IMG/VR virus record: IMGVR_UViG_3300013108_000151 | Location: 1-64,000 of that record | Length of the DNA stretch: 64,000 bases | From: a virus | Strand: one strand, 5' to 3' | In this document: positions 4,734 through 48,743 of the stretch, one piece after another | Position numbering within the stretch: the stretch's first letter is position 1 | Layout: each line of letters starts with the position of its first letter | Notes under the pieces: model-generated | What the model was told of the DNA's origin: nothing | Databases searched by the model: none | What the model saw: only the letters and a program-made list of their open reading frames with translations | Translations under genes and position numbers: made by a program

Positions 4734-5196
4734 CACGTCCATGTCCATATTGAACAAACGATCCGTTTTCTCCATCTTCAGAAACATCAATCCAAATAGT
4801 ACGACCAGGATAGCGATCTGCTATTTGGCTATGTAAATCATCACAAATCATTTCACACGATTTGTAATCAAGTTCTAATGTTTTTTCAGCATATAGTTTT
4901 TCTAACCATCGCTTAAATTGGATAAACTCAATATCTCTGTCATCATGAAATACTTCTATCCAAACTTTAAAATGAAAAATATGTCTATGAGGATAACCTA
5001 AGAAACTAACATCATATTCGTCACCTGTTGCTAGTTTTGGATCATCTAATGCCGCAGGATATTTATGTATACCTTCTTTTCTAAAAGTTACCCAGATCAT
5101 CTTTTTAGAGTTACTACGAGTTTCAGCAATACTTTCTTTTAGTGCCTGTTGCCTCATAGGACTATCATCAATGTTTACTACGTTTTCTTGGCTCAT
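4723..5196 (-). CDS. QueD-like (6-pyruvoyl-tetrahydropterin synthase/T-fold) protein lacking the catalytic Cys
   Basis: 157 residues. After an N-terminal extension of about 32 residues, the spacing matches QueD: His44 (GIHKYP), the pair His70/His72 (PHRH, in place of HGH), a beta strand FHFKVWIEV, DRDIEFIQFKRWLE in place of the IIDFAELK helix, and a C-terminal IWIDVSEDGENGSF strand ending in the family's Glu region. The three zinc histidines are therefore present. The cysteine that normally lies four residues before HGH is a leucine here. Whether it makes carboxytetrahydropterin is unclear. A promoter at 5222-5250 drives it, and FolE lies downstream. Related proteins occur in marine T4-like phages. 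Confidence 0.65.
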   Translation of the reverse strand: MSQENVVNIDDSPMRQQALKESIAETRSNSKKMIWVTFRKEGIHKYPAALDDPKLATGDEYDVSFLGYPHRHIFHFKVWIEVFHDDRDIEFIQFKRWLEKLYAEKTLELDYKSCEMICDDLHSQIADRYPGRTIWIDVSEDGENGSFVQYGHGRDVQ

Positions 5197-5221
5197 TTTA
5201 GTTCCTTTACTTTAAGTTAAT

Positions 5222-5250
5222 ATAATAACAGGTTGTGCTATTAAAGTCAA
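5222..5250 (-). promoter_or_regulatory. Sigma70-like promoter for the QueD-like gene
   Basis: TTGACT (5250-5245), 17-base spacer, TATTAT (5227-5222) on the minus strand, about 26 bases before the ATG at 5196. The SD AAAGGAAC lies in between. Confidence 0.75.
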
Positions 5251-5254
5251 CCTT

Positions 5255-5590
5255 TTAATATAATTTAAATTCATATCCAATTGTAATCCCCCAATTATTG
5301 TCTGGAGAAGTTTCATATGAAGGTGCCAAATACCAACTGTCTTTTGTTACTCTCGTCATTGGCACAATTTTCTCTCCACTGTATCCTGTTACTAATCCAA
5401 TTTCCAATTCCGAATTAAATGGTGTATCAAACTTTCTTCCAATATAAGCACCAACATTTGATTCGCTGTTATAATAAACTCCTGCTATTGTATTATCAAT
5501 TGTACATCTAGCATGTGGGTGAACAGCATTGTAATCTCCTTCTAGTCCAACGTGTAGCGATAACGCCACTAGCAAAGATATACAACTCAC
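5255..5590 (-). CDS. Secreted small beta-rich protein (possible outer-membrane-like), 111 aa
   Basis: The start is a GTG at 5590 overlapping the stop of the upstream gene (TAAGTGA), with GGAAGA as SD. The first 15 or so residues are hydrophobic and resemble a signal peptide or anchor. The remainder alternates polar and aromatic residues in short strands (VGAYIGRKF, LEIGLVTGYSG, WGITIGYEFKLY) and ends in an aromatic, as small beta-barrel outer membrane proteins do. Function is unknown. Confidence 0.55.
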   Translation of the reverse strand: MSCISLLVALSLHVGLEGDYNAVHPHARCTIDNTIAGVYYNSESNVGAYIGRKFDTPFNSELEIGLVTGYSGEKIVPMTRVTKDSWYLAPSYETSPDNNWGITIGYEFKLY

Positions 5591-8893: not shown

Positions 8894-8917
8894 TGATTTC
8901 TTCTCCATTTATATTGT

Positions 8918-8946
8918 ATTATAACTTGTTCGTATATTAAAGTCAA
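8918..8946 (-). promoter_or_regulatory. Sigma70-like promoter for the clamp gene
   Basis: TTGACT (8946-8941), 17 bases, TATAAT (8923-8918) on the minus strand. The -10 box is 25 bases from the SD-supported start at 8893. Confidence 0.8.
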
Positions 8947-9734
8947 GTCTTTTTTCGATGAATTTTATTCAATTCAACGGCTTTTTCTAATAACGATAAA
9001 TCTATTCCTAAATCTGTCGTTTCATTTAATAAGGCGTTAGTGTCTTTTGGAAAACAATGTCCTCCCCAACCAAACTTACCATCAGGACCAGGAACCATTG
9101 TATGTCCTGACCCAATCCTTGGATCCAATCCTAATAGATTGCTTACTGTATCGTAATTGGCTCCAGTTTTGCTACATAGTTCAAATAGTTCATTAAAGAA
9201 CGTTAGTTTTGTTGCTAGGAAACTATTAGCAAAATACTTCACCATACTTGCTTCTTCGAGTGTACAAGTGTGTATATGCTCTACTAATGGCAGACTTTGT
9301 CTTAACATATCTGCCCAAAACTTTGTTTTATCTCCGCCTAGTATACAATACTTTTGATTAACAAAATCTTCTAATGCTGTTGCTTCTCTTAAAAACTCCG
9401 GATAGTATGTAATTGATTGTTTGTTCCATGCTTTATTATATTCTTCCATCCGTGCTAACGAACTCCATGGTACTGTACTTTTAATTAAAATTGGCAAATC
9501 AATTTCACCAGTACTAGCATCTTTTAATACATTCCAAATATTACTATCATCACAAGAGCCGTTTTCTGCTGGCGGTGTGCTAACAGCAATTATAAGCCCA
9601 TCTGCTGTTTTAATATGGTCTTGTAATTTGTTATTGTTTAGTCTAGGGTCTACAGGTATTATCTCATGATGTTTTGATAATAGTTCTCCAATAGCACTTC
9701 CTACAAAGCCATATCCTGCTATAATTAACTTCAT
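8943..9734 (-). CDS. Short UDP-glucose/GDP-mannose dehydrogenase-family protein
   Basis: 263 residues, compared with about 400-450 for the family. The N-terminal Rossmann motif GYGFVGSAIG (residues 8-17), the central-domain helix with VKYFANSFLATKLTFFNE and the catalytic loop GWGGHCFPKDTNAL with its Cys are present. The C-terminal UDP-binding domain is missing. It may be a natural short form, acting with another protein, or using a smaller substrate. It overlaps the adjacent epimerase gene by four bases, so the two probably supply a modified nucleotide sugar. Their place between clamp and polymerase is unusual. Confidence 0.85.
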   Translation of the reverse strand: MKLIIAGYGFVGSAIGELLSKHHEIIPVDPRLNNNKLQDHIKTADGLIIAVSTPPAENGSCDDSNIWNVLKDASTGEIDLPILIKSTVPWSSLARMEEYNKAWNKQSITYYPEFLREATALEDFVNQKYCILGGDKTKFWADMLRQSLPLVEHIHTCTLEEASMVKYFANSFLATKLTFFNELFELCSKTGANYDTVSNLLGLDPRIGSGHTMVPGPDGKFGWGGHCFPKDTNALLNETTDLGIDLSLLEKAVELNKIHRKKT

Positions 9735-15712: not shown

Positions 15713-16135
15713 TTAATTTTCTAGGTCTTTAGATACTTTACTTTCGAAACTGTCGTATCCGCCCCAGTCGTTGTCGTCTTGATATTCAACACCCATGTCA
15801 TCGTCATAATCTGAACTGCTATGAGGATCGAAGTCGTCATCCTTGCCTAGTATTTCATCCATTAACTTATCTTGTATCCATTCATATGGATCACCGTCTC
15901 TGGCTTTCATAGTACCATAAGGCATATCCCCAGAGTTGCTATACAAGTCAAATAAATCTTGATAGAACTCTGGGTGATCTGATAAATCAAAATCTTCTGG
16001 GCTTCGTTTAAACAAAGCAACTTCTTTTGGGTGTGCTTGAAGTATGTCGTGTACACTTTGGTACGACTTTTCTTTAATCATATTATCACTTACCATTTTC
16101 ATGTAAGTGTTCATTTCTTTTACTATGTTACTCAT
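15713..16135 (-). CDS. Acidic unknown protein, about 140 aa
   Basis: The start at 16135 overlaps the end of the 260-aa gene by eight bases. An N-terminal helical part (NTYMKMVSDNM) is followed by a strongly acidic C-terminal third with many Asp/Ser (KDDDFDPHSSSDYDDDMG). It is probably soluble and partly disordered. It is the last gene of the 23373-15713 cluster, which may encode head-associated proteins. No family is recognised. Confidence 0.6.
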   Translation of the reverse strand: MSNIVKEMNTYMKMVSDNMIKEKSYQSVHDILQAHPKEVALFKRSPEDFDLSDHPEFYQDLFDLYSNSGDMPYGTMKARDGDPYEWIQDKLMDEILGKDDDFDPHSSSDYDDDMGVEYQDDNDWGGYDSFESKVSKDLEN

Positions 16136-16910
16136 CAAATATACTCTCTGTCTTAGCATAAGGTTTTTTATTTTTAACTTGTGCTTTAGTTTTGTTGTTT
16201 TGTTCGTCCTTATCCTCAGAGTCCATGCCTACTGTAATGCCATAAGATTCGCCAAGTGCCCCTTTTACTAATTGTGGGTAATATTTTTTGTTGATGTTGT
16301 GATACATCCATTCACTATCCATAGTGTCTGTGTATCCTTGTTTTCTATTTTTAGCAATAACTAGTTCTACCATTTTAATTTCTTTAGGTGTGCCAAATGC
16401 TTTTGCTAGTAATAAGTTGTTTTCTGAATGATAGTTGTTCTTTTCATTGTCTTTATACAATTGCATTAATGCTTTGCCTTCAAGGCCTTTAGCATCAAAA
16501 TCGTCTTCGTTCTTAATAGGTAGTTCAGGGTCAAATGCTTTCCATTCGTCATATGTTAAGTACATATCTGTATCTGGATCGTAGTACTTTCCTTCTACAT
16601 TATCATAATAAACTACTTTGCCTGAACGTGTCATAATAGGACCTTCTAGCCCATCGCGTGGTTGATACTTTTCTCTATCTATATCTGGAAGTCTAGCCCA
16701 ACCTTCGTTAGTTTTATGTAAGTAATGGTATAATGAATCTAGTTGCATTAATTCTCTTGGTGATAAATGATCACCTCTTCTTTTTAATTCATCAAATACA
16801 GCAATTTCTCTTTCTAGTTCTTCCCTATTCATCGCACCAGGATGTTTGCCTGATTGTGTCCACGGCGATCTGCTTGGGTCGATTTCTTTTATTAGATCTT
16901 TTGCTCTCAT
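16128..16910 (-). CDS. Possible head-internal protein, 260 aa (unknown)
   Basis: It begins MRAKDLIKEID, with an IKE triad at residues 7-9 that would fit the T4 prohead protease cleavage rule (L/I)xE. Two small repeats of YYDxxxGKYYDPDTDMYLTYDEWKAF type (about residues 98-125) look like an OCRE/WW-like tyrosine-rich element. The C-terminus is lysine-rich. It is three bases from the Cys-rich gene upstream. The function is unknown; packaging into the head is inference from the N-terminus and neighbours. Confidence 0.6.
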   Translation of the reverse strand: MRAKDLIKEIDPSRSPWTQSGKHPGAMNREELEREIAVFDELKRRGDHLSPRELMQLDSLYHYLHKTNEGWARLPDIDREKYQPRDGLEGPIMTRSGKVVYYDNVEGKYYDPDTDMYLTYDEWKAFDPELPIKNEDDFDAKGLEGKALMQLYKDNEKNNYHSENNLLLAKAFGTPKEIKMVELVIAKNRKQGYTDTMDSEWMYHNINKKYYPQLVKGALGESYGITVGMDSEDKDEQNNKTKAQVKNKKPYAKTESIFDE

Positions 16911-16912
16911 TT

Positions 16913-17833
16913 TTATTTTCCGTATATCTTTGTTTCTTCGTCCCAGTTAGCAATCATGCTCTTAAGTGTGTCTAACATTTTTTGTAAATCACCTGTGCCT
17001 ACTCTATCACCAGTTCCCATTATTTCTTTACTAAATTTGTATCTTTGTTCAATTGCTACATTTAACTGACCTGCTGTTTTTATTAGCATTGATTTAGTAT
17101 GATTAAGTTGACCTTTGTCTAAATCTCTATAATATTCAGTAGTTCCATGTTTTGCTACCTCGTTAGTTGATTCTTTACGATGGCGTCCTGTATTAAGTTT
17201 TTCAAAAGCATTATTATGAGCATCTTTAAGATCTGATAAAGCACCATGCATATTTCTAAGATCATTAACCATATCTGAACTATTATCTTTATCTTCTATG
17301 TCTGTTAATGCTAAAAGTGTTTTAGAAACTTGGTTTAATTGTTTTTTTAAATTATGAAGTTGAATACCTTTATAATCATTGTAATTCTTTTGTGCTACTT
17401 CACCTACTGCTTTTTTATTAAACTTTTGTACATCTGGATTTTGTTCTCCAGGTACTACTTTTAATGCTCTTGCTACAGCACCTTGTAAGCCTTGAACTGA
17501 TTTAGACATAGTAATAAGTTGATCATGTATGTCGCCTGTTCCAGTTACCGGTTTGCCTTCCCATTCTTCAGCACTATCCATAACACCTAAACGTTTGATG
17601 TGCTTTTCAATATCTACAAGTTTGCTGTATAATTCTTCTAATGATTGATATTTTCTATCATCTTGAAAGTCTTCATTTACTGAATGACAGTCACAACTTG
17701 AACACTCTGGGCCACAAGTACATTCTTCTTTTGTGCCACAACCACAACCACAAGATTCAACTACTTTGTTTTTTTCTTCATTTTGTATTTGTTGTAGTAC
17801 TGAATTTATTTCGTGTATGTCACCAAACTTCAT
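16913..17833 (-). CDS. Helical protein with N-terminal Cys cluster, 306 aa (unknown)
   Basis: The N-terminus MKFGDIHEI has an IHE triad (6-8). Residues 27-50 hold nine cysteines and a histidine within about 24 residues (CGCGCG, CTCG, CSSCDCH), which could bind zinc or an Fe-S cluster. The rest (60-306) is long helical segments with GTGD turns at about 97 and 275 and is coiled-coil-like. The Cys cluster is unlike anything else in the window. It starts one base after the preceding stop, so the genes are in one transcript. No known family. Confidence 0.6.
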   Translation of the reverse strand: MKFGDIHEINSVLQQIQNEEKNKVVESCGCGCGTKEECTCGPECSSCDCHSVNEDFQDDRKYQSLEELYSKLVDIEKHIKRLGVMDSAEEWEGKPVTGTGDIHDQLITMSKSVQGLQGAVARALKVVPGEQNPDVQKFNKKAVGEVAQKNYNDYKGIQLHNLKKQLNQVSKTLLALTDIEDKDNSSDMVNDLRNMHGALSDLKDAHNNAFEKLNTGRHRKESTNEVAKHGTTEYYRDLDKGQLNHTKSMLIKTAGQLNVAIEQRYKFSKEIMGTGDRVGTGDLQKMLDTLKSMIANWDEETKIYGK

Positions 17834-18472
17834 TTACTTGTCCTCTTTTTTGCCCATAGCCTTTTTGATTGCTTTATCTTTAGCGGCCATGTAATCATCT
17901 CCGTCAATGTCGCCATCTCCGTCGTGGTCTTTTTTCTTGCCTTCACTCATATCATGATTTTGTCTAAAATATTTTACAAAATCTTTAATTGTGTCACCGT
18001 CTAAGTAACGAACTAAATCGTCAAACACAGGATGGTCAGCACATTCTAATTCGTCGCATAAATCATAAATTGGATCAGCAAATTCACCAACTGCTTCTGG
18101 AGTGGGCTCTTCTTCTGCTACTGCCGTTTGTGGAGCAATTAAATCTCTAAATTGACTTGAGAGGTCAGCAATTAAATCTTCGTCAACTATGTCCTCGCCA
18201 ACAAGTTTACCTCTGTTGGCATTCTTAGTTGTTCCATCTGTTTCGCCGCTGGGTACGGATTTTGTCTTTTCTCTACCTTTTAAATGATTAGGTTTGGACT
18301 CGTCAATTGATTCAAGTAAATTAGCCATAGCATTTACATCTGGATCGTGATGTTTTTTCTCTTGCTTTGCTTTTTTAATTACTTTAATTTCTTTATGCTT
18401 TTGTGCTTGGTCGCCAGTTTCGCTCATTTCGTTTAACTTGGCTACTAAACTAGAAAATGAATTGTCTTCCAT
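17834..18472 (-). CDS. EF-hand-loop protein, 212 aa (unknown)
   Basis: Near the C-terminus the segment DHDGDGDIDGDDYMAAKD (about residues 184-201) matches a dockerin/EF-hand calcium-binding loop, with Asp at positions 1, 3, 5 and an acidic 12th position. The remainder is acidic and partly disordered, with lysine-rich ends. The N-terminal LNE triad (13-15) fits a prohead protease site. Similar EF-hand tails occur in marine T4-like phage proteins of unknown function. It overlaps the 162-aa gene by one base. Confidence 0.6.
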   Translation of the reverse strand: MEDNSFSSLVAKLNEMSETGDQAQKHKEIKVIKKAKQEKKHHDPDVNAMANLLESIDESKPNHLKGREKTKSVPSGETDGTTKNANRGKLVGEDIVDEDLIADLSSQFRDLIAPQTAVAEEEPTPEAVGEFADPIYDLCDELECADHPVFDDLVRYLDGDTIKDFVKYFRQNHDMSEGKKKDHDGDGDIDGDDYMAAKDKAIKKAMGKKEDK

Positions 18473-18960
18473 TATTTGTCTCCTTTGTTTTCGTTAGCCT
18501 GTTGTAATGCTTTAGCAACCTTAGGATGGTCTGCTAATCCTGGCTTCAACTTGTTAATCTTTTCAGCGGCACCCGTATAGTTACCACCTTTAAATTCAGG
18601 ATGATTAGCAATGGCTATTGCCTTTCTTACATCATCATCTGAAAATTCTTGTTTAAGCTCGTTCATACCTTCTGCTGGAACAGGAGTTGCTACGTCTATA
18701 GCAAGTTCAATATCACTTGGTGTTGATTCTAAGTGATGTTTAACACTTGAAATATAGTCAGCGGCTTTAGTAATTTTAGCCTGTACCCAACCTTCAAGTC
18801 CTTGTGCTTCAGATACATTTTTAAGCATTTTGTGTAGTTCAACGGAGTACTTTGCTAGTTTAAATAAATCTGCTCTAGCCATTTGTACTTCGTGGTCTGT
18901 TTCCATTACACGAGTGTCCATGGATAAATCTTCTTTTACGATTATTTGTTTAGCTCTCAT
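18472..18960 (-). CDS. Helical unknown protein, 162 aa
   Basis: Begins MRAKQIIVKED, nearly identical over its first four residues to the 16128-16910 protein. Predicted helices at 25-60, 62-82 and 105-155, the last containing DVRKAIAIANHPEFKGGNYTGA, which reads like a TPR-like pair of helices. The SD GGGGTT precedes the ATG. It probably belongs to a head-internal or core protein set, but this is inference. Confidence 0.6.
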   Translation of the reverse strand: MRAKQIIVKEDLSMDTRVMETDHEVQMARADLFKLAKYSVELHKMLKNVSEAQGLEGWVQAKITKAADYISSVKHHLESTPSDIELAIDVATPVPAEGMNELKQEFSDDDVRKAIAIANHPEFKGGNYTGAAEKINKLKPGLADHPKVAKALQQANENKGDK

Positions 18961-19012
18961 TTTTTAACCCCGAATTAATTAGTTGTTTAAGTTATTTATT
19001 TAATTTATAATA

Positions 19013-19255
19013 TTATCTCTTAACCATTGGACCACCAAATATGCTTGTACCTTTCATATCTAGGGCATTATCTGTTGGTTTTTGATTCTTAGGTTTAGGA
19101 TGTTTTGGTGCTTTACCCATTTTACCAGGGACTCCGGCATAACTTTTTTGTTGTGCTTTATTTCCAATAGCAATATGTGGGTTTACAACAGAAGCAATGT
19201 TACCACTTGCTGTGGCGCCTGCTGTTGCTGTTTCTATAATATCTTTTATTTTCAT
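19013..19255 (-). CDS. Small glycine/alanine-rich protein, 80 aa (unknown)
   Basis: Begins MKIKDIIETATAGA, with an IIE triad at 6-8. The rest is low in secondary structure and rich in Ala, Gly, Lys and Pro, ending KGTSIFGGPMVKR. Small proteins of this kind recur in marine T4-like phages near head genes. No SD is visible; a TAAATA box ends four bases before the ATG, so the mRNA may be leaderless. Confidence 0.6.
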   Translation of the reverse strand: MKIKDIIETATAGATASGNIASVVNPHIAIGNKAQQKSYAGVPGKMGKAPKHPKPKNQKPTDNALDMKGTSIFGGPMVKR

Positions 19256-19277: not shown

Positions 19278-19502
19278 TTAAATGAAAAACTTTTTTAATA
19301 ATTGGCTATTAATACTTCTATCAGCCCTACGACTTGCTTTTTTCATCTTTTTTGCTTTTGCCCTAAGTACTTTTAATTCTGCTCTAGTTAGTTCTGGCCT
19401 TGTTGTAAAGCCTAGATAACGTAATGCTCTGTACTTAAAGTTTCCTTTCTTTTTGAAGTTGTTAATCGATACTGTTTCATGCTTTAGTTCCTCGTTTTTC
19501 AT
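19278..19502 (-). CDS. Small very basic protein, 74 aa
   Basis: More than a quarter of the residues are Lys or Arg, in two clusters (KKKGNFKYRALR, RAKAKKMKKASRRADR). This suggests nucleic acid binding or a packaged DNA-compacting protein. It overlaps the 3' end of the HAD-CCA gene by 26 bases in another frame. No family is recognised. Confidence 0.55.
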   Translation of the reverse strand: MKNEELKHETVSINNFKKKGNFKYRALRYLGFTTRPELTRAELKVLRAKAKKMKKASRRADRSINSQLLKKFFI

Positions 19503-21909
19503 TTTCCCAACTCCTTCTTAATAGGGCAACTCGTCCTTCACCTTTTACTTGTAGTCCGAGTTTATTAGCCTGTTTTGATGTTTCGCCCGGTTTAACATCT
19601 TTAGTTGTATTATATGGTGTTATAATTCCAACACCTTCATCTAAGTCTAACATGTCTGCCATACGTTTCATAGCAAAACTTTTAGATTCTGTAGTTACAG
19701 CATTTAGTAAATCGTCTGCTGATAAGTCATAATTGTTTTGTTTCCACAAGTCTTTTAATTTGTTTAGTGTAGCACCTAACCCAGGCCCAGGTGTCATGCC
19801 GTGTTGTATAAGATCTTTTCCTGTTATAGGAAACTCCGGCATTGTAAATTGTTCTATATAACTTGCTAGTTTTTCATTGCTTTGTATCTTTAATAGATTA
19901 CTAACTTTTACTTTATCGTGCCCATCAATAACCAAATGCTCTGCTTGTTCTTTTGTTAATTTTCTATTTTTGTAAGTTGTATAAAACTTTAAATCTTGTG
20001 CTTCGGCGTTACTTAATTTCCATTTGTTAGCAATAGAAGTATCATCAACTAAAACTGCTAATGCTATTACAGGATCTGTATTACCTTTTATATCTGTTAA
20101 TCTTGCTATCTTGCCTGTGTCTAATCCTATTACCTCGTCAACACCTGTTGCTGACATATAGGACAATGTTTGAATTACACTATGTCCTACTAATAGTTTG
20201 CCCATCTCCTGCCATATTCTCTCTACAGAAACTTGAGACAATCCTTTAGTGTTATCTTTAATAGCCTTTAATGTTTCTTTATCCCAAGTAGGACTTTCTA
20301 ATTTACTTTGAAATCTAAAGTATCTTAGTATTCTTAAGTAATCTTCTTTAATACGTTCTACTGGATCACCAACAAACTTACTAACTTTATCTTGTAAGTC
20401 GTCCATGCCTTCAAAGTAATCATACAAGTTGCCATCAAAGTCTAAACTCATAGCATTGTAAGTTAAGTCTCTACGTTTAGCATCTTCTTTCCAGTTACGA
20501 ATAAACTCTACGTCAGCATGTCGACCATCTGTATTAGTGTCTGCTCTTAACGTTGTAATTTCATATCCTTCGCCGTCAATAATTGCTGTAAGAGTTCCGT
20601 GTTCCATTCCAGTAGGCTTATGTTTAATACCTGCTTTGTCTAGTATAGCAACCATTTCGTCTGGTGTGGCATCTGATGCCAAGTCAATATCTTTAGGTGT
20701 TTTACCTAAAGCAATATCTCTAACAGCACCGCCAACTATTCTTATTTCAAACTTGTTCTTTTTGAATACGCTATCTAATTTTTCTAACGCTGGGTTCATT
20801 ATATTGTTAAACCCTTCTGTATCTAGTTCTTCACTTTCAACAGTAAACTCTTTGTTAGAAGTTTTAAAGTCTGCTTTCCTCATTACTGTTTTAGCAATAA
20901 GATCTAATTCTTTGTTATTTTTATCCCATACTAAAGCAAAAGGTACATTAACATCAGTTCTCATATCTTTCATTACTGCTTCAGCATCAGGACCCATTTG
21001 AGCAATAGGTCTTGCCCAGTATTTGTATTCTTGTTTAAATAAACGTGTTAGTTCTGCTGGTGTAATAGGTTTTTCGTTTCTAGCATCATTTACTCTATCT
21101 AAAAAATGTCTAGTAAATTCTACATCAATGCCTACTTTAGAAAATAGTCTGTCAGCATATGCTTCAATTTGTTTTAAGTCTTGTGGTGTAACATCTTCGT
21201 AAACTTTTCTTACATACTTCTTGTAATTTAATCCGTGTCCTGAACTAGGCCTATAGCCCATCTTAGCACCTTTAGGCTTTGGGTATCTTAGTTTTCCTGG
21301 AGTAGACTTTTTTACTTTTAAAGGCCTTCTAAATCCACCATAAGTTAATCCGCTGATACTTAATGGTCCACGTTCGTTTAAATATTGCTCTTTATAATCG
21401 TCCAAAGCATTTATAACTACATTCAACGAATCTTCATCTGCTTGATACTTAATACCGTAACCGCCTGCTTTATTCCAATTTTCAATGTTTAGTCCTCTGT
21501 CGTCAATTAATATATTAGGCGTACCATCTGGTTGTTTAGCAAATCTATCTTTGTTTGCTACTATAAGAGTGTTTGTAGGTTTAATTTTTAACTTTCTGCC
21601 AATCCAGTCAATTTTATGCTTTTTGCTGTTTTCATGATCATTTCTTAGTGGCGAGGAACATATACTATACGAGCCAAAACGATTTATAACTATTTGAAGT
21701 AATTTATCTGCTGTAGGAAATTTTTCTAACTTAGCAAAGAAGTCTGTGCCTATCATTCTATTAAGAGTAGAATTTACTTTGTCTTGGGGTATGTCTCTAT
21801 AAGTTTTAACACCTACCATTTTTGCCCAAGCACCAAAGAAGTCTGCTAGTACTCCATCCATGTCAACATAAACTATAGGCTGTTTGTTATCTACTTCACT
21901 TAGTTTCAT
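19477..21909 (-). CDS. HAD phosphatase - linker domain - CCA-adding/poly(A) polymerase fusion, 810 aa
   Basis: Residues 13-165 form a HAD domain: VYVDMDGVLADFF gives the DxD nucleophile pair, and ILIDDRGLNIENW gives the C-terminal acidic motif. Residues 235-350 are a separate unknown domain (VEFTRHFLDRVNDARNEKPIT). Residues 385-620 are a class II tRNA nucleotidyltransferase/poly(A) polymerase head. It has IVGGAVRDIALG and DIDLAS (metal-binding DxD), RRDLTYNAM, and ERIKEDYLRILRYFRFQ. The N-terminus MKLSEV holds LSE. Together this would repair RNA 3' ends: a phosphatase plus a CCA/A-adding enzyme. Whether it is packaged or acts in the cell is not known. Confidence 0.85.
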   Translation of the reverse strand: MKLSEVDNKQPIVYVDMDGVLADFFGAWAKMVGVKTYRDIPQDKVNSTLNRMIGTDFFAKLEKFPTADKLLQIVINRFGSYSICSSPLRNDHENSKKHKIDWIGRKLKIKPTNTLIVANKDRFAKQPDGTPNILIDDRGLNIENWNKAGGYGIKYQADEDSLNVVINALDDYKEQYLNERGPLSISGLTYGGFRRPLKVKKSTPGKLRYPKPKGAKMGYRPSSGHGLNYKKYVRKVYEDVTPQDLKQIEAYADRLFSKVGIDVEFTRHFLDRVNDARNEKPITPAELTRLFKQEYKYWARPIAQMGPDAEAVMKDMRTDVNVPFALVWDKNNKELDLIAKTVMRKADFKTSNKEFTVESEELDTEGFNNIMNPALEKLDSVFKKNKFEIRIVGGAVRDIALGKTPKDIDLASDATPDEMVAILDKAGIKHKPTGMEHGTLTAIIDGEGYEITTLRADTNTDGRHADVEFIRNWKEDAKRRDLTYNAMSLDFDGNLYDYFEGMDDLQDKVSKFVGDPVERIKEDYLRILRYFRFQSKLESPTWDKETLKAIKDNTKGLSQVSVERIWQEMGKLLVGHSVIQTLSYMSATGVDEVIGLDTGKIARLTDIKGNTDPVIALAVLVDDTSIANKWKLSNAEAQDLKFYTTYKNRKLTKEQAEHLVIDGHDKVKVSNLLKIQSNEKLASYIEQFTMPEFPITGKDLIQHGMTPGPGLGATLNKLKDLWKQNNYDLSADDLLNAVTTESKSFAMKRMADMLDLDEGVGIITPYNTTKDVKPGETSKQANKLGLQVKGEGRVALLRRSWENEKRGTKA

Positions 21910-21918
21910 TTAACTTCC

Positions 21919-23373
21919 TTATACAGTATCGAAGTTTACATCTTCAAATTGATAAGTTGACTCTGCTTTAATCTTTTTTAACAACATCATAATACGTTGT
22001 GTTTCTTCGGGGTCTTTTGATATTAGTTCTTTAAAAGCATCTGCGGCCGCAATCATTTGATTACGTGAATATTGTGTGTCACCGCGTTTCATTTTCATTA
22101 ATACTTGTAGTAACTGTTGTTTGTCTGCTACACCTGGAAGTTGTTTAGCAATCATTTGTGGACTAACGCCACCTGATAACTTGCCATCTTCGTCGTTAGG
22201 CGAGTCAGGTGTTACTAGTTCTTCTTTCTTTAATGTTGGTGTATCTATTCTTTGGTTAACCTTAGCAGGATCCATTCCCATTTTAGATGCTTGTCCGTAC
22301 TTTGCCATTGTCTTTTGTAAGTAAGCGGCTTTTCTTCTCAACCTAGCGGCTTTTTTAGCGGCAGGTGAAATTCCTTCTGTCATTACTGGGTCAAAGTTAT
22401 CTAGATAAAATCTTATTAATGTTTTAGTATCTATATCTTTAAATCCACCAGCAATGTTAGAAGCATACCAGCCTAAAGCATGGCGAAACGGTTTGCCAGC
22501 ATTTTCTTTTTTCTTTCTTTGTAAAACAGAGTGTAGTCTTTCTGCGGCATTTCTATATCCACGTCTGTTTAGTACAGGTGCTATTTTTCTTTTTAGCATT
22601 CCGTATGGAGTTTCTTCTTCAACAGATTCACCTTTTGCCCTTTTGGTGGCTACGGCATGCATTACACTCTCAGCATCTTTACCATAACGTTTTTCAAAGT
22701 CGCCTTTATGTTTTTTTAGTTTCTTAAAGTTTGCTTCTTTGCTACGTTTCTCTCCGCCGCTTAATTTTCGTTCTGTTGTTGTTTCTGCCAGACGTGTATC
22801 CAGTACCTGCTGAATTACCTCGTTATACGAACCGAACAAATCGGTTATAAACTCTTTCCTTTGTTCATCGTCTAGTGTTTTATACTGGTCTCTTAGTTGT
22901 GTGGCAGAAGAAGCCGGAGCACCTAGTACTGTGAAATTAACAGTTGGCGCCACGATTAAGTACCCATGCTTCTCATACCCTTCTAGTTCTTCAATTTTTT
23001 TGTTGTCTATTGGTTGGTAATATGTTGGGGTTCCATCTTTCTTAAGACCTGGTTTGAACCTTGGGTTTTCGTCCATGTCCTTTTGCCCTACAGCAAATAT
23101 AACTGCTGTATCTGGGCTAACACCTGACAGAGTATTTTCAGGTTTATATGGTGATGTTTCCTGTTTAATTGCTTTACCAGGAACACCAGCAAGTAACATC
23201 ATAGCACGTTTTTCTTTAAATGTAAACGGTGATCCAGGGCCTGTTTTATTGCTTGTACAAATGAAAGTATTATTTTCGCCAAACTTCTTGGCTATACTGT
23301 CATAAACAGCCTTGTGTCCTTTGTGAAATGGATGAAACCTGCCACCATATATTGCTATAATCTTACTAGCCAT
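21919..23373 (-). CDS. NMNAT-like nucleotidyltransferase with long C-terminal extension, 484 aa
   Basis: The first 190 residues form a cytidylyltransferase-like nucleotide-binding domain: IYGGRFHPFHKGHKAV contains the HxGH motif and SSATQLRDQY matches the ISSTxIR motif. These enzymes adenylylate NMN, pantetheine phosphate or similar. The remaining 290 residues are basic, helical and of unknown function (KKHKGDFEKRYGKDAESVMHAVATKRAKG, then AAKKAARLRRKAAYLQKTMAKYG). It lies ten bases before the HAD-CCA fusion, so the two large multi-domain genes are co-expressed. A late-type box at 23395-23402 precedes it. The exact substrate cannot be told from sequence. Confidence 0.8.
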   Translation of the reverse strand: MASKIIAIYGGRFHPFHKGHKAVYDSIAKKFGENNTFICTSNKTGPGSPFTFKEKRAMMLLAGVPGKAIKQETSPYKPENTLSGVSPDTAVIFAVGQKDMDENPRFKPGLKKDGTPTYYQPIDNKKIEELEGYEKHGYLIVAPTVNFTVLGAPASSATQLRDQYKTLDDEQRKEFITDLFGSYNEVIQQVLDTRLAETTTERKLSGGEKRSKEANFKKLKKHKGDFEKRYGKDAESVMHAVATKRAKGESVEEETPYGMLKRKIAPVLNRRGYRNAAERLHSVLQRKKKENAGKPFRHALGWYASNIAGGFKDIDTKTLIRFYLDNFDPVMTEGISPAAKKAARLRRKAAYLQKTMAKYGQASKMGMDPAKVNQRIDTPTLKKEELVTPDSPNDEDGKLSGGVSPQMIAKQLPGVADKQQLLQVLMKMKRGDTQYSRNQMIAAADAFKELISKDPEETQRIMMLLKKIKAESTYQFEDVNFDTV

Positions 23374-23394: not shown

Positions 23395-23402
23395 TATTTA
23401 GT
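23395..23402 (-). promoter_or_regulatory. Late promoter-like box (ACTAAATA)
   Basis: ACTAAATACAGTATA on the minus strand, 22 bases before the NMNAT-like start. The same 13-base core (CTAAATACAGTAT) recurs at 54477-54484 before a fibre gene. Confidence 0.45.
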
Positions 23403-25040: not shown

Positions 25041-25852
25041 TTTGTTTCTTTCTTTACATATTTTATAACTCGAGAAATAAATTCTCCAAGTGTTAAGTCT
25101 ACTAATGTTAGATTATATTCATCTTCAACGTAGATCCAATCTCCTACGGGCCAATGTCCTCCGGGTTTGGATTTATTCATTTCTGCTAACCTTCTATCAG
25201 TAACTTTGATAACTCCTTGCTCATTTAATTCTGTTATTACTTTTGTTGTTGAAGTGTTTTTCCTACACTTATCTTTAAGTATAACACGATATTGATATTT
25301 GTCAAGCGGAAACTTATCACATTCAATTTCATCAGGTTGAATTTTAGGATTAACTAAATCAACTTCATATACATAGGTAGCAACATTTTCTAACAAAGAA
25401 AATACATTAGGATCATTTGTATAATGGTCTACATTTGTTCCTTCAATTCTAAGTTTAGGATTTGGACCTAAATTTTCATACATCCATTTTATTAATTCAA
25501 ATGTATTTTCGTATTCTTTATTCCATATAGATTTTTTACCAACTGGTACTATCCTGCTATAAGATTTTTCACAAATTTGCTTTAGTAATGACCTATCATC
25601 TGGTAGTAATCCTTTAACCCATTCTTTATACGATTTACTATTACTACCACTAAATTCTGTACGTCTAGCATAAAAGTAACGCCAATAATAAACAGGATAA
25701 AATCTTATACGAATTTGAAACTCACTATAAAATCTACTATCTGCTATCCTAATTCTAGATAAGAATCTACTAAGTTTGGGGTTTAAATTGGTCCAGTACA
25801 ATAAGACCGGATTTGTTGACTTGTGGAGTAGATTCGGCTTGTAACTCTTCAT
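25037..25852 (-). CDS. Unknown protein, 271 aa
   Basis: The frame overlaps the end of the ClpA-like gene by 83 bases if the ATG at 25852 is used. A later non-ATG start cannot be excluded because no SD is seen. The N-terminal 70 residues are rich in Arg/Tyr/Phe (RIRFYPVYYWRYFYARR). The C-terminal half is charged with GDWIYVEDEYNLTLVDLTLGEF. No family is recognised, and there is no clear membrane helix. It is co-transcribed with the unfoldase, so a link to its function is possible. Confidence 0.55.
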   Translation of the reverse strand: MKSYKPNLLHKSTNPVLLYWTNLNPKLSRFLSRIRIADSRFYSEFQIRIRFYPVYYWRYFYARRTEFSGSNSKSYKEWVKGLLPDDRSLLKQICEKSYSRIVPVGKKSIWNKEYENTFELIKWMYENLGPNPKLRIEGTNVDHYTNDPNVFSLLENVATYVYEVDLVNPKIQPDEIECDKFPLDKYQYRVILKDKCRKNTSTTKVITELNEQGVIKVTDRRLAEMNKSKPGGHWPVGDWIYVEDEYNLTLVDLTLGEFISRVIKYVKKETK

Positions 25853-28088
25853 TGTGATCTAGCTCTCCTTTGTTAATAGTAATTGTAAATTGATTATCTA
25901 CATAATCAATTAAAATTAGAGAGCCTTCAGGAACTGATTCAAATAAAATTTTCTTAGATAAAGGTATTTTAACTTTATCTTCAATTACTCTTGCTAATGG
26001 TCTAGCACCCATTTTCTTATCATATCCGAGCTCGGCTAATTGTGCCACTGCTTTTTCCATAAACTCGATCTTAACACCCTTCTCAGAAAGTAAGTCGTTA
26101 ATTTCTTCTTTAAATTTGCCAACAATTTTTCTTACTACTTCGGTTGATAGATGTTTAAATTTACATACGCCATCTAGTCTATTTCTAAATTCAGGTTTAA
26201 AGAAGTTTTTGACTGCTTTATCTTCCTCACCTGTTTTTTCGAGTCCTTGACTAAAGCCAATATTATTCATTTCGTTATCCATAGCACCTAAGTTAGATGT
26301 CATTAAGATAACTGTATTTCTAGCATCTGCTTTCTTACCATTTGTGCTAGTAATAAATCCTTCGTCCATTAGTTGTAACAATACATTACTAACATCAGGG
26401 TGTGCTTTTTCTATCTCATCAAACAATATAATAGAGTGAGGATTCTTTTCTATTTCACTTACTAGCATTCCGCCACCTAAGTTACCATCTTCGTATCCTA
26501 CATATCCTGGAGGAGCACCAATTAGTCTAGCGACTGTATGCTTCTCTTGGTATTCACTCATATCAAAACGTAATAGTTTTGCTTGTGAATATTCTGCTAA
26601 TAGTTTAGCAAATTCTGTTTTACCAGAGCCTGTTGGTCCTAGTAATAAAAATGTTCCTATAGGTTTATTAATACTTTTTAGTCCTGCTTTGCTTACCATA
26701 ATCTTATTAACTACAGTATCAATTACTTGATCTTGTCCGTATAGTTTAGTTTTAATATGAACATCTATTTCTGCTAAACTCTTTGTCTCTTCAGAGTTTA
26801 AATGTTCTATAGGTATCCTTGTCGCTTTAGAAAGTTCTTCTATAATGTTGTGTTTACGAATCTTAAAGTTCTTGTGTCCTAAGAAACGTTGCCTAGCACA
26901 AGCACTATCAATTAAATCAATAGCCTTATCTGGTAATTTTCTATCTGATTGGTGTCTGACGCTAAGGTCAACAGCGGCTTCAATAGCCTCTGGAAATATC
27001 TTTGCTTTATGAAAGTCCATAAAATACTTGTTAAGACCAGTAAGTATATCTTTCGCTACTTCTGGTGTGGGCTCTTCAACTGTTAGTCTATAAAATCTTC
27101 TCATAAACGCCCTGTCTTTTTCAAAACTAGACGTATAGTCTTCCCATGTAGTAGAAGCAATTACTTTTACTTCTCCTTTTGCTAATGCTGGTTTAAGCAT
27201 TTGCATGAAATCTGGTCCACTGTTTCCCCCGGCGCCGGCACCCTTCATTTGATGTGCTTCATCTATGAAGATTATAGTACCCGGCAGTTTCTTTGCCGCG
27301 GATATAATTTCTTTTAATCTTTCTTCAAATTCACCTCTGTATTTTGTTCCGGCAATTAAGCCACCAACGTCGAGATTAAATATTTTAGAATTTTTTAAGT
27401 ATTCAGGCACGTTGCCCGCGTTAATTCTTGCGGCTAGTCCTTCAGCAATAGCAGTCTTACCCACTCCAGGTTCGCCTATTAATAATACATTTGATTTGTT
27501 ACGTTTAGCAAGTACTTGGCACATTTCCTCTATCTCTGTCTCTCTGCCAATAACAGGATCAATCTTTTTGTTTTGTGCCTGTTCGTTTAAATTAACTGTG
27601 AACTCGTCCATAACTTCTTTAGCCATTTGTAAATGCATTTCTTCTTCATTTTCACCTGTGTAATTCATATTGAAGAATTCAGTTAGACTGTGCTTTGCTA
27701 CACCAAACTTCATAAAGAAGTAATAAGAGTGGCTACGTTCTTCAGCCATAATGCTTTGGAATAAGTCTATTGTTTGTAAATGTTGTCTGCCGCTAAACAA
27801 TACTTGAGTAAATGCTCTATTACATACTCTATCTAGTCCTTGTGTTTTTTGAGGATCTATATGGCCTTCTGTTGTTATAGGCAATGTTTCTACATACGCC
27901 TTAATTTCTTTTGCTAATTGTTCTTGATCACACCCGTACTCCTCTAACATTATTTTAAAGTTCTTATAGTTAACTAATGCTAATGTTAAATGCTCAATAG
28001 TAACGTATTTGTGCTTTAATTTTGCGGCAAATTCATATGCTTTGCTTAAAATTAAATCCATTTCCGGGTTGTGTTTTATTCCTGCCAT
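25770..28088 (-). CDS. clpA: ClpA-like AAA+ unfoldase
   Basis: 772 residues, close to E. coli ClpA (758). Order: ClpN domain (residues 1-140, EFAAKLKHKYVTIEHLTLAL), D1 AAA+ with GEPGVGKTA (about 209-217) and FIDEAHQ, D2 with GPTGSGKTE (about 490-498), LFDEIEKAH, and the ClpA-type C-terminal small domain (YDKKMGARPLARVIEDKV). In D2, NNIGFSQG sits where ClpA and ClpX have their IGL/IGF loop, so docking to ClpP is likely. It unfolds proteins using ATP and feeds a ClpP chamber, possibly the host's or the phage ClpP at 39307-39885. Phage-encoded ClpA with the ClpP loop is uncommon. Confidence 0.95.
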   Translation of the reverse strand: MAGIKHNPEMDLILSKAYEFAAKLKHKYVTIEHLTLALVNYKNFKIMLEEYGCDQEQLAKEIKAYVETLPITTEGHIDPQKTQGLDRVCNRAFTQVLFSGRQHLQTIDLFQSIMAEERSHSYYFFMKFGVAKHSLTEFFNMNYTGENEEEMHLQMAKEVMDEFTVNLNEQAQNKKIDPVIGRETEIEEMCQVLAKRNKSNVLLIGEPGVGKTAIAEGLAARINAGNVPEYLKNSKIFNLDVGGLIAGTKYRGEFEERLKEIISAAKKLPGTIIFIDEAHQMKGAGAGGNSGPDFMQMLKPALAKGEVKVIASTTWEDYTSSFEKDRAFMRRFYRLTVEEPTPEVAKDILTGLNKYFMDFHKAKIFPEAIEAAVDLSVRHQSDRKLPDKAIDLIDSACARQRFLGHKNFKIRKHNIIEELSKATRIPIEHLNSEETKSLAEIDVHIKTKLYGQDQVIDTVVNKIMVSKAGLKSINKPIGTFLLLGPTGSGKTEFAKLLAEYSQAKLLRFDMSEYQEKHTVARLIGAPPGYVGYEDGNLGGGMLVSEIEKNPHSIILFDEIEKAHPDVSNVLLQLMDEGFITSTNGKKADARNTVILMTSNLGAMDNEMNNIGFSQGLEKTGEEDKAVKNFFKPEFRNRLDGVCKFKHLSTEVVRKIVGKFKEEINDLLSEKGVKIEFMEKAVAQLAELGYDKKMGARPLARVIEDKVKIPLSKKILFESVPEGSLILIDYVDNQFTITINKGELDHNEELQAESTPQVNKSGLIVLDQFKPQT

Positions 28089-28096
28089 ATTATATC

Positions 28097-28570
28097 CTAA
28101 CTGTATTGTACTTCATTATTAAATCTTTGATCCATTGTTATACCTTGACAGTGATCATATTCGTGTAACCAACATCTTGCTTCAAGTCCTTCTAAATCCA
28201 TTGTTGTCCAAGTTCCAGCATAATCTTGAAACTTTACATGGCAATTATTAGGGCGAGTTATTTTTAATTCTTCGCCTTTAAAACTTAAACATCCTTCGGT
28301 GTCTGTTACCATATTATCATGACCCCATTCTCCATCCGTGTGTATTAATTCGGGATTGATACAAGTAAGTATGGTTTTATCTGCCCTCTTCATTACAAAC
28401 ATTTGTACATTAAGACCGCATTGGTTAGCCGCTAATCCCATACCGCCTTCTTCAAACATAAGACTAACAAGTTCTAAACTATACTTTTGGTATAATTTCT
28501 TACTTGCTTCTTTATCGTCCCAAGTAAGTTTTTTTCCTAATGTGTGTAAGTATGTTGGGTCTAATCTCAT
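28097..28570 (-). CDS. def: Peptide deformylase
   Basis: About 157 residues from ATG 28570 (ATGA overlap with the J-protein gene); ATG 28582 is an alternative. All three family motifs are present: GMGLAANQCGL (motif 1, GxGLAAxQ), EGCLSF (motif 2 with the metal Cys) and LHEYDHCQG (motif 3, HExDH). It removes the formyl group from nascent proteins in the cytoplasm. Phage deformylases with short C-termini are known from cyanophages. It sits between a J-protein and ClpA, forming a protein-processing block. Confidence 0.95.
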   Translation of the reverse strand: MRLDPTYLHTLGKKLTWDDKEASKKLYQKYSLELVSLMFEEGGMGLAANQCGLNVQMFVMKRADKTILTCINPELIHTDGEWGHDNMVTDTEGCLSFKGEELKITRPNNCHVKFQDYAGTWTTMDLEGLEARCWLHEYDHCQGITMDQRFNNEVQYS

Positions 28571-29385
28571 TTTGTATTCCATTTTATTATAGCATTTTTC
28601 TGTTCTTCTGTCAAGTTCTTAGGTATATTAATATGTAGCCTAATAAACAAGTCACCACCATCTAATCCGTAACCAGGTATACGTTGTACTTGATGATGTT
28701 GAGTGCCTTCTTTGATTGATATCTTTAATACCTTGTCGTCAATATGTGTATACTCTGTAACACCTCCTGTCATAGCGTCCCATACACTTATTTCATGTTC
28801 AGCAACAAGGTTGCCTCCCTCTATACTGTACTTATTATCACGCTGAATAAGAACAGTGATTATTAAATCACCTGGAGTACCCATTTGTCTAGGTGGTAAG
28901 CCGTGTCCTGTATAACGTATCTTTGTTCCGTTTTTAACGAACGGCGGCGTTTTTACACTTAGAGTATTACCATTTACTTGAAGTATATGTTCGTGTCCAT
29001 GCCACATTTGATAAAATGTTACTGGCAAATTCATTGCTATGTCTCTACCTTTTCGACTAGTATTACGATATTTTACATCAGGATGTGGGCCGCTTCTTTG
29101 ACCAAATATGTCTCCAAAATTTCCAAATCCTGATAGTATATCGTGTAAGTCGTCTTGTGACATTCCACTACTAGACCATGTGAAGGATGTATCACCAAAA
29201 GGATTTTGTCCAGTGTCGCCTTTTTTAATTCTATTATATGCTTCTGTGATTTCTTTCATTTTGGCTTCGCTACCACCTTTCCTGTCAGGGTGGTGCTTCA
29301 TAGCCAATTTCTTATAGGCTTTCTTTACTGTTGCTTCGTCTGATTCGGGGGATACACCCAGAACTGTATAAGGGTCCTGATTCAT
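28567..29385 (-). CDS. DnaJ/CbpA-type J-domain co-chaperone
   Basis: 272 residues. The J domain is residues 4-60, with the HPD triad in KHHPDRKGG that stimulates the DnaK ATPase. A short Gly/Phe-type linker (NPFGDTSF) follows, then two beta-rich C-terminal substrate domains. The cysteine zinc finger of DnaJ is absent, so it is a class B J-protein like CbpA. A perfect promoter at 29392-29420 places +1 on or next to the ATG, with no SD, so the mRNA is predicted leaderless. It would recruit host DnaK to phage targets. Confidence 0.93.
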   Translation of the reverse strand: MNQDPYTVLGVSPESDEATVKKAYKKLAMKHHPDRKGGSEAKMKEITEAYNRIKKGDTGQNPFGDTSFTWSSSGMSQDDLHDILSGFGNFGDIFGQRSGPHPDVKYRNTSRKGRDIAMNLPVTFYQMWHGHEHILQVNGNTLSVKTPPFVKNGTKIRYTGHGLPPRQMGTPGDLIITVLIQRDNKYSIEGGNLVAEHEISVWDAMTGGVTEYTHIDDKVLKISIKEGTQHHQVQRIPGYGLDGGDLFIRLHINIPKNLTEEQKNAIIKWNTK

Positions 29386-40696: not shown

Positions 40697-40788
40697 TGGT
40701 AGAAGTGCCCGGAATCGAACCGAGTCGAGAACGCTAATCTGGCGCTGAAAGGAATATAAACCCTCCCTGTGTACCAACACCCACTTCC
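40697..40788 (-). tRNA. Class II-like tRNA, anticodon uncertain
   Basis: A 92-base stretch with encoded CCA (TGG at 40697-40699 on the plus strand). The acceptor GGAAGTG pairs with CACTTCT. A perfect T-arm CTCGG-TTCGATT-CCGGG is present. The long variable region can form a five-pair stem (AGCGC/GCGTT). The best anticodon arm GAGGG-TTTATAT-TCCTT gives UAU (Ile), which is odd for a class II tRNA; the D-arm is short. An alternative arm in the variable region is weaker. It may be a divergent or decaying tRNA. Confidence 0.55.
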
Positions 40789-40802
40789 CGCAGAATAGAA
40801 TT

Positions 40803-40877
40803 TGGTAACACCTAGGGGAATCGAACCCCTCTTGCCAGGATGAAAACCTGGAGTCCTAACCGATAGACGAAGGTGTC
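40803..40877 (-). tRNA. tRNA-Glu (UUC)
   Basis: A full cloverleaf with encoded CCA. Acceptor GACACCT/AGGTGTT, D-arm GTC-TATCGGTTAG-GAC, anticodon arm CCAGG-TTTTCAT-CCTGG giving UUC, and a T-arm with GGTTCGATTCC. Glu codons are common in these AT-rich genes (GAA). The 5' end overlaps the stop of the adjacent CDS by two bases. It lies next to the class II-like tRNA. Confidence 0.93.
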
Positions 40878-45186: not shown

Positions 45187-45561
45187 TTAAAAAGGTAAAT
45201 CATCTTCTTCAGGATCTGGTGGTGTTAGTAGTTCTAATGTTATATGCTTTTCGACTTCTAACTCATATGCTTCTGCCATTGCTTTAATGTGAGGGTGCTT
45301 TTCTTCCATTTCTTTGTTACGATTTAATTTAGCAGGAATACCTAATACTTTTTCAATCCTTTCTAACCTTGTATCTATGTCAGTGACAGTTCGTTCTGTA
45401 AAAGATTCTGTGCTGTTTTCTGTATCTGTGAAGTGTATGTCTTTATAATTACCAAGTGAAACAGTAACATCAGATAAGGTAGTTGAATAATTCCATTGAT
45501 CTAATGTCTTTTCGGCATCATCTAAGTCTAACTCTAATTGATATTCATCTTCTGGGTTCAT
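45187..45561 (-). CDS. Acidic unknown protein, 124 aa
   Basis: Starts with ATGA overlap on the radical SAM gene stop. An acidic N-terminal helix (EYQLELDLDDAEKTLDQW), a Thr/Ser middle and a coiled TRLERIEKVLGIPAKL segment, ending PDPEEDDLPF. No family is recognised. Its place suggests co-expression with the radical SAM enzyme upstream. Confidence 0.6.
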   Translation of the reverse strand: MNPEDEYQLELDLDDAEKTLDQWNYSTTLSDVTVSLGNYKDIHFTDTENSTESFTERTVTDIDTRLERIEKVLGIPAKLNRNKEMEEKHPHIKAMAEAYELEVEKHITLELLTPPDPEEDDLPF

Positions 45562-48536: not shown

Positions 48537-48743
48537 TTAATATCGAGGAATATTGGCCATTGCTCTTTGAGTATCGGCATCGTTTTGGGCTGTTTGGACA
48601 GCCTTTTTTAACTCAGAATTTTCACGTCGTAAGCGTTTATTTTCAGTAATAAGATCGTCAATTCGTCTTTCCAAATCCAACGGGCCTCTATCATCAGGTA
48701 AACTGGCTATGTATTCATTTGCTGTCATTTTCTCTTTTGTCAT
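48537..48743 (-). CDS. Coiled-coil small protein, 68 aa
   Basis: Start at 48743 (MTKEKMTAN) has GGAG about ten bases upstream and an ATGA overlap with the halogenase stop. A long amphipathic helix (LERRIDDLITENKRLRRENS, then ELKKAVQTAQNDADTQRAMA) has strong heptad character. Function not recognised. Confidence 0.65.
   Translation of the reverse strand: MTKEKMTANEYIASLPDDRGPLDLERRIDDLITENKRLRRENSELKKAVQTAQNDADTQRAMANIPRY

Follow-up and report, generated by a model that had tools for sequence, protein, structure and literature searches.

Why should a virus carry a phosphatase and a tRNA nucleotidyltransferase, with a further domain between them, in a single polypeptide? The DNA analysed here (the window) covers 64 kb of a 64,881-base record from a T4-like marine virus and has genes for a family B DNA polymerase, a clamp loader, baseplate and tail proteins, a ClpA-like ATPase and a peptide deformylase. 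An uninterrupted open reading frame of 810 codons encodes an 810-aa protein in which an NT5C-type HAD phosphatase, a basic linker, a folded domain (mid), a CCA-adding enzyme and a C-terminal tag follow one another (Table 1). The original prediction, that one ORF holds both a HAD domain and a class II nucleotidyltransferase, is borne out by the ORF and by Pfam and PHROGs, and the motifs it quoted (DMD, GGAVRD, DID, RRDLTYNA, EDYLRILR and VERIWQE) are all present; the C-terminal tag at about residues 739-810 is a further part beyond the three described there.

Table 1. Features of the 810-aa protein and its surroundings, in window coordinates.
Feature	Residues	Position	Strand	Remarks
810-codon ORF	1-810	19477..21909	(-)	first 12 residues MKLSEVDNKQPI
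N-terminal motif M-K-L-S-E	1-5	21895..21909	(-)	putative T4-type capsid-targeting / prohead-protease-like [LIF]xE site
HAD phosphatase, NT5C / 5'(3')-nucleotidase type	8-174	21388..21888	(-)	D16/D18, S85, K120, D136/D137
Basic disordered linker	175-237	21199..21387	(-)	contains GGFRRPLKVKKSTPGKLRYPKPK; [LIF]xE at 177-179
Mid domain	236-355	20845..21204	(-)	predicted RegB/RelE-like RNase fold; invariant His in HFLDR
Class II CCA-adding tRNA nucleotidyltransferase, head, neck and tail	366-738	19696..20814	(-)	
C-terminal tag	739-810	19480..19695	(-)	[LIF]xE at 756-758, then GVGIITPYNTTKDVKPGETSKQANKLG module
NMNAT-like / cytidylyltransferase-like gene		21919..23373	(-)	directly upstream of the ORF, 9-nt gap
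CTAAATA, T4-type late-promoter-like motif		23395..23401	(-)	21 nt upstream of the NMNAT-like gene
Downstream genes of the same cluster		16128..19255	(-)	N-termini of the same type in several: MRAKDLIKEI, MKFGDIHEI, MRAKQIIVKE, MKIKDIIETA
tRNA-Ile(TAT) and tRNA-Glu(TTC)		40697..40877		CCA genomically encoded in both

The fusion is real, intact and conserved. Because the same HAD-mid-CCA order occurs on three other, independent contigs, giving four distinct complete proteins with the window's own, the frameshift or chimeric assembly that might have joined two genes is excluded, and since the catalytic residues are also invariant among relatives, with the aspartates kept in 28/28 HAD and 19/19 CCA domains, the protein is not a decayed pseudoenzyme. 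Relatives were found in 30 uncultured viral loci, several with the same domain order, and among the isolate phage records none matches 80% of the protein's length. Confidence in the relative placement of the domains is low in the full-length structure model (pTM 0.39), and we therefore propose no spatial arrangement of the domains.

The nucleotidyltransferase is of the CCA-adding type, with an activity that is predicted from its sequence. Pfam places a PolyA_pol head at residues 389-509 (E 1.5e-32) and a PolyA_pol_RNAbd domain at residues 543-590 (E 1.9e-8), the class II CCA motifs RRDxxxNA, GG..RD, DxD, EDxxR and ERxxxE are intact, and across 19 aligned CCA domains the GG, RD, DxD, RRD, EDxxR and ER..E residues are each present in 19/19. 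The closest solved structure is the human mitochondrial CCA-adding enzyme TRNT1 [4x4w, E 5.9e-66, Z 26.8, with 359 residues aligned at an rmsd of 6.3 A to a flexible, multi-domain model], and the alignment to it spans the CCA-type head stretches HGTLTAI...EITTLR and the loop TDGRHA. Poly(A) polymerases rank behind it as structural matches, and the CCA model PRK13299 scores 226 bits, a score below the NCBIfam equivalog cutoff, against 117 bits for the PcnB model. The enzyme had been left as either CCA-adding or poly(A) polymerase; we keep the first and reject the second, as TRNT1 is by far the better match to the CCA-type head and the PcnB model scores lower. Compared with TRNT1 and the bacterial class II CCA enzymes, the phage unit has all the catalytic motifs and the full head-neck-tail fold, but sits inside a multi-domain protein. 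In E. coli Cca a CCA enzyme is joined to an HD phosphohydrolase, which resembles the phage protein in coupling a CCA enzyme to a phosphohydrolase, whereas the phage partner is a HAD domain and the domain order differs.

The N-terminal phosphatase matches Pfam NT5C at residues 11-146 (37.4 bits, cutoff 24.8). In an alignment of 28 HAD domains, D16, D18, K120, D136 and D137 are each kept in 28/28, and the DxD, S/T, K and DD motif residues as a whole in 27-28/28. Motifs and fold are closest to those of the 5'(3')-deoxyribonucleotidases cdN and mdN (Z about 14-15), although the identity to them is only about 20-24% and the substrate of the phage domain is a prediction. Nucleotidases of the 5'(3') type are able to act on 3'-phosphates. 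A role of the fusion at RNA 3' ends is plausible, as first proposed, but the HAD groups with enzymes that act on mononucleotides and is for that reason not established as an RNA 3'-phosphatase. This bears on the purpose given in the original prediction, that the phosphatase removes a 3'-phosphate or 2',3'-cyclic phosphate left by anticodon nucleases and the CCA enzyme then rebuilds the end. A phosphatase and a CCA enzyme in one chain would suit such a pathway, as would the use of 3'-phosphates by this nucleotidase class, but repair of an anticodon break requires an end-healing kinase/phosphatase and a ligase, and the fusion holds neither ligase nor RNA kinase. NT5C-type enzymes, moreover, use mononucleotides, and since CCA enzymes act at the acceptor end and cannot close an anticodon break, the proposal fits poorly and we regard it as very improbable.

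The region between the two enzymes had been described, at residues 235-350, as an unknown linker domain, but it is no linker: structure prediction gives a well-folded domain (pLDDT 95) with an extra N-terminal helix, and it is highly conserved, the other 42 aligned sequences being 61-98% identical to the window copy, with the His of HFxDR invariant. In PHROGs it matches phrog_23027 and phrog_14518, both phage families of unassigned function, and a Pfam scan gave inconsistent weak matches, the best to DUF3867 (E 2.5e-4), in 7/43 members. Compared with PDB structures, the toxins RelE, HigB, YafQ and ParE come out on top, the best being RelE with a low Z of 6.5 (77 residues, rmsd 3.0); a Foldseek search of the PDB returned no significant match, and T4 RegB (2hx6) was absent among the matches listed. 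Among viral models the domain matches a protein annotated as a site-specific RNA endonuclease, the RegB annotation (E 1.6e-6, TM 0.63). A local profile-profile alignment (hhalign) with seven RegB sequences puts the invariant His on RegB His48, with H-F-L-D-R aligned to H-L-L-D-R [P 0.0015; the score was equalled in 1/200 column shuffles]. RegB shares a fold family with RelE and YoeB and carries an additional helix at its start (PMC3014915). From the structure matches, the alignment on His48 and the RegB-type extra helix, we assign the modelled mid domain a probable RegB/RelE-like fold; it is likely, though not certain, to act as an RNase. It differs from T4 RegB and the RelE/YoeB endoribonucleases in having a conserved Lys at the place of RegB His68, and its sequence similarity to them is very weak. 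If right, this is a first structural assignment for a phage domain that is very common and conserved and has no Pfam family. The domain was seen, unusually conserved, in 263 stretches of marine viral contigs (L035-L114), and relatives in bacterial genomes amount to 10 loci, from MAGs or environmental bins, which are possibly phage contamination.

Among relatives the association of these domains is shuffled. We found at least seven arrangements (HAD-MID-CCA, HAD-CCA, CCA-HAD, HAD-MID, MID-HAD, SAH-CCA-HAD and SAH-MID-CCA), and the same modules also occur as neighbouring genes, with HAD, MID or SAH within 6 kb of 31/61 distinct CCA loci. Relatives of 1117-1425 aa carry an HD_4 domain with an intact HDxxED that matches the small alarmone hydrolases (SAH) MESH1 and SpoT and, in their N-terminal part, a DGHHR motif that was assigned by eye as ParB-like; the SAH domain is absent from the window protein. 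A GNAT domain is also joined to the mid domain in relatives. As single cases, ParB-like, SAH/MESH1-like HD_4, CCA and NT5C-HAD domains share one chain in L010:4633-8283, L024:3578-7855, L016, L009 and L014, a 1270-aa protein (L078:2780-6592) has a C-tag-like N-terminus followed by SAH, the RegB-like mid domain and a CCA enzyme, and Zeta-toxin-like kinase domains are fused to the RegB-like mid domain in L038:2108-5563 and L076:2084-4846, the latter also with HAD. In the cultured Methylophilales phage Melnitz (L032) the HAD (4978-5490, QZI94976), NMNAT-like (615-2567, QZI94972) and mid (8908-9357, QZI94985) genes are solo and their cluster precedes the primase; the first two products begin with the motif discussed below (MKSIVEV, MKKFSEII).

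The GVGIITPYNTTKDVKPGETSKQANKLG module of the C-terminal tag is also present in other phage proteins: in the loci the short NTTxDVxPxE...KQAxKFG module of the window (19480-19695) recurs in 46 otherwise different proteins, usually C-terminally and at times N-terminally, and against phage isolates the tag gave just weak Gordonia matches (E 0.8). Further recurrent short basic tails are KGFSQKAHC and EKxKMYHWCANM.

These patterns recall the polyvalent proteins of Iyer et al. 2017 (PMC5512222), whose features of at least two disparate domains, variable shuffled architecture and solo versions are all present here. The likeness extends to the occurrence of solo and fused forms, predicted injection with the DNA and recurrent BECR-type RNase, ParB-like and RelA/SpoT-related domains. 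The differences are that, as far as the available text of that study goes, its Pol-beta nucleotidyltransferases are of a minimal type in Firmicute elements and not CCA enzymes, and that its proteins are marked by MuF or zincin domains, the phage set by a T4-type N-terminal motif; neither NT5C-HAD with RegB-like and CCA nor SAH-CCA-HAD was found described in that text. The protein combines its domains in a new way, on the known theme of phage proteins that have several domains and are ejected. The same study finds unrelated activities within one chain to be typical, and this supports an account in which the modules are fused only through one shared packaging tag and work separately, on targets that have nothing to do with one another (nucleotide pools, mRNA, tRNA), with no common RNA-end pathway. 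The free variation of order and partners, Zeta-toxin-like kinases, ParB-like, GNAT and SAH domains included, agrees with it, as does the grouping of the HAD with mononucleotide 5'(3')-nucleotidases. However, CCA, HAD and SAH co-occur more narrowly than random shuffling suggests, and for SAH-CCA-HAD we count seven distinct complete proteins, although they are related to one another; we take independent action to be a serious possibility, if a somewhat improbable one.

Whichever module comes next, most of these proteins share the start M-x(1-3)-[LIF]-x-E. In the vicinity of these genes, 56 of the 158 N-terminal families have [LIF]xE in residues 2-11, compared with 13-21 at control positions; by class, the motif is found in 7/7 SAH-CCA-HAD, 4/4 HAD-MID-CCA, 27/33 CCA and 43/53 MID proteins and in 190/1101 other ORFs, and within the window in 5/10 cluster genes and 5/82 others (p 0.001). 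The motif is short, with a chance occurrence of roughly one protein in ten, and the window NMNAT-like protein lacks it, as do most SAH proteins that stand alone. In T4, a short propeptide at the N-terminus, cut after Glu, directs the cargo (PMC9026906), and the N-terminus of T4 Alt is MELITELF. As an independent test we compared the motif with the published virion proteome of the T4-like cyanophage S-CREM2 (PMC10665884) over two genome stretches (gp1-84 and gp131-197), counting the motif within the first 10 residues: it occurs in 10/15 virion-detected proteins that have no assigned structural role and in 11/123 undetected ones [Fisher p 1.4e-6; four window lengths were tried and all were significant]. 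The detected carriers include a cytidylyltransferase (MKNFSSFLTEAD), a SAM hydrolase (MKDFDSFLEEFD) and a kinase (MKRFDAFLTEEE), and according to the authors of the proteome non-structural proteins in these virions could be carry-over (PMC10665884). The stretches compared hold no HAD-MID-CCA homologue. NMNAT-like enzymes are recurrent in cyanophage virions (PMC9602691); the window NMNAT-like protein had no BLAST match to S-CREM2 gp154 in the set compared, so that this parallel holds at the level of enzyme type only.

A T4-type prohead protease (PF03420) is encoded by four long relatives and was not found in the 64.9-kb fragment of the window's phage. The protein has four [LIF]xE sites (residues 3-5, 177-179, 520-522 within the nucleotidyltransferase, and 756-758), three of them at domain edges, where cleavage is speculation; across interdomain linkers the excess of such sites over shuffles is modest (54 vs 43; 12/300 shuffles). 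The protein resembles T4 Alt and IPI-III in its short [LI]xE-type propeptide (MELITE in Alt), in the T4-type protease of its relatives and in the late expression motif, and differs in that its enzymatic cargo is unrelated, its packaging is putative and its motif is shorter than the capsid targeting sequence of IPIII. Packaging of the 810-aa protein in the virion seems to us fairly probable, and the domain shuffling, the RegB-like domain and the packaging-like N-terminus together suggest shared virion delivery as the reason for the fusion.

The NMNAT-like gene is a probable operon partner of the ORF, and NTAAATA motifs in upstream zones of the window, those ahead of tail genes included, number 13 against 2.7 expected and are probably late promoters. 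They are concentrated 19-45 nt upstream of genes, tail genes among them. In the window TATAAATA, the exact T4 late promoter, is less frequent than chance predicts (4 vs 12 expected) and was rejected as the promoter of the 810-codon gene, upstream of which it does not lie; the relaxed NTAAATA core is the enriched form. No head genes adjoin the gene in this fragment, and PADLOC gave no match. The protein might instead be an enzyme of RNA or nucleotide metabolism made during infection and left unpackaged, its N-terminal motif serving otherwise, for example in regulating translation or folding. Other phages commonly have CCA-adding enzymes in no such setting, those of jumbo phages have been interpreted as RNA repair (PMC7824862), and no virion proteome was found for this phage or any close relative. 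Against this stand the late-type promoter motif ahead of the operon and the occurrence of the motif in non-homologous proteins, with enrichment among virion-detected ones, and we consider an unpackaged enzyme distinctly unlikely.

The reading that we prefer is that of a polyvalent enzyme which a marine T4-like phage expresses late and carries inside its capsid. The M-K-L-S-E motif would direct it into the prohead, where a T4-type protease would be able to clip it after the motif Glu, and cleavage at 177-179 and 756-758 may in addition free the HAD and the C-terminal tag. The protein would then be ejected together with the DNA, and in the cell the CCA-adding module would restore damaged or modified tRNA 3' ends, the NT5C-type HAD would take phosphate off nucleotides and possibly off 3' ends, and the RegB-like domain would bind or cut RNA. 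The net effect would be that host defences which put tRNA 3' ends out of use are countered and translation stays open to the phage from the first minute on. For this protein we infer that it is packaged, cut by the protease and injected, and we infer its biological substrate as well; as the best explanation we put a virion-packaged, ejected polyvalent protein, probably active in early tRNA 3'-end rescue and RNA takeover, at an even chance of being right; tRNA-end rescue as a main role comes close to an even chance without reaching it. As CCA is encoded in both phage tRNAs, the enzyme is not needed for maturing them, which favours repair of tRNA ends, be they the host's or the phage's. The tRNA-end reading also gains from the relatives in which SAH joins the same CCA and HAD modules: a phage SAH removes the pyrophosphate put on tRNA 3'-CCA ends by toxSAS toxins (PMC11559606), and this reversal, taken with the repeated joining of SAH to CCA and HAD, points to a kit for rescuing tRNA 3' ends. 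As the window protein has no SAH, its own link to tRNA pyrophosphate would come by way of these relatives.

In its widest form, which we offer tentatively and think rather unlikely, marine T4-like phages would deliver from the virion a modular kit, made of free fusions between a CCA enzyme, an SAH-type hydrolase, a phosphatase and a RegB-like RNase that share a single capsid-targeting motif at the front and are injected to reverse toxSAS/CapRel-type attacks on tRNA 3'-CCA ends before phage gene expression. The enzyme cargo of these phages is hardly known. If the reading is true, the injected cargo of an abundant group can be predicted from a motif at the N-terminus that the sequence itself reveals, and phages carry tRNA 3'-end repair into the cell alongside their DNA, a counter to tRNA-targeting immunity that is active before any phage gene is transcribed.

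Other genes of the window may be recorded here. One cluster protein (17834-18472) ends in a calcium-loop-like DHDGDGDIDGDDYMAAKDKAIKKAMGKK tail. The phage-borne ClpA-like ATPase (25770-28582) adjoins the peptide deformylase gene, and Tryptophan-halogenase-like and radical-SAM-like genes lie at 48740-49840 and 45558-46841.
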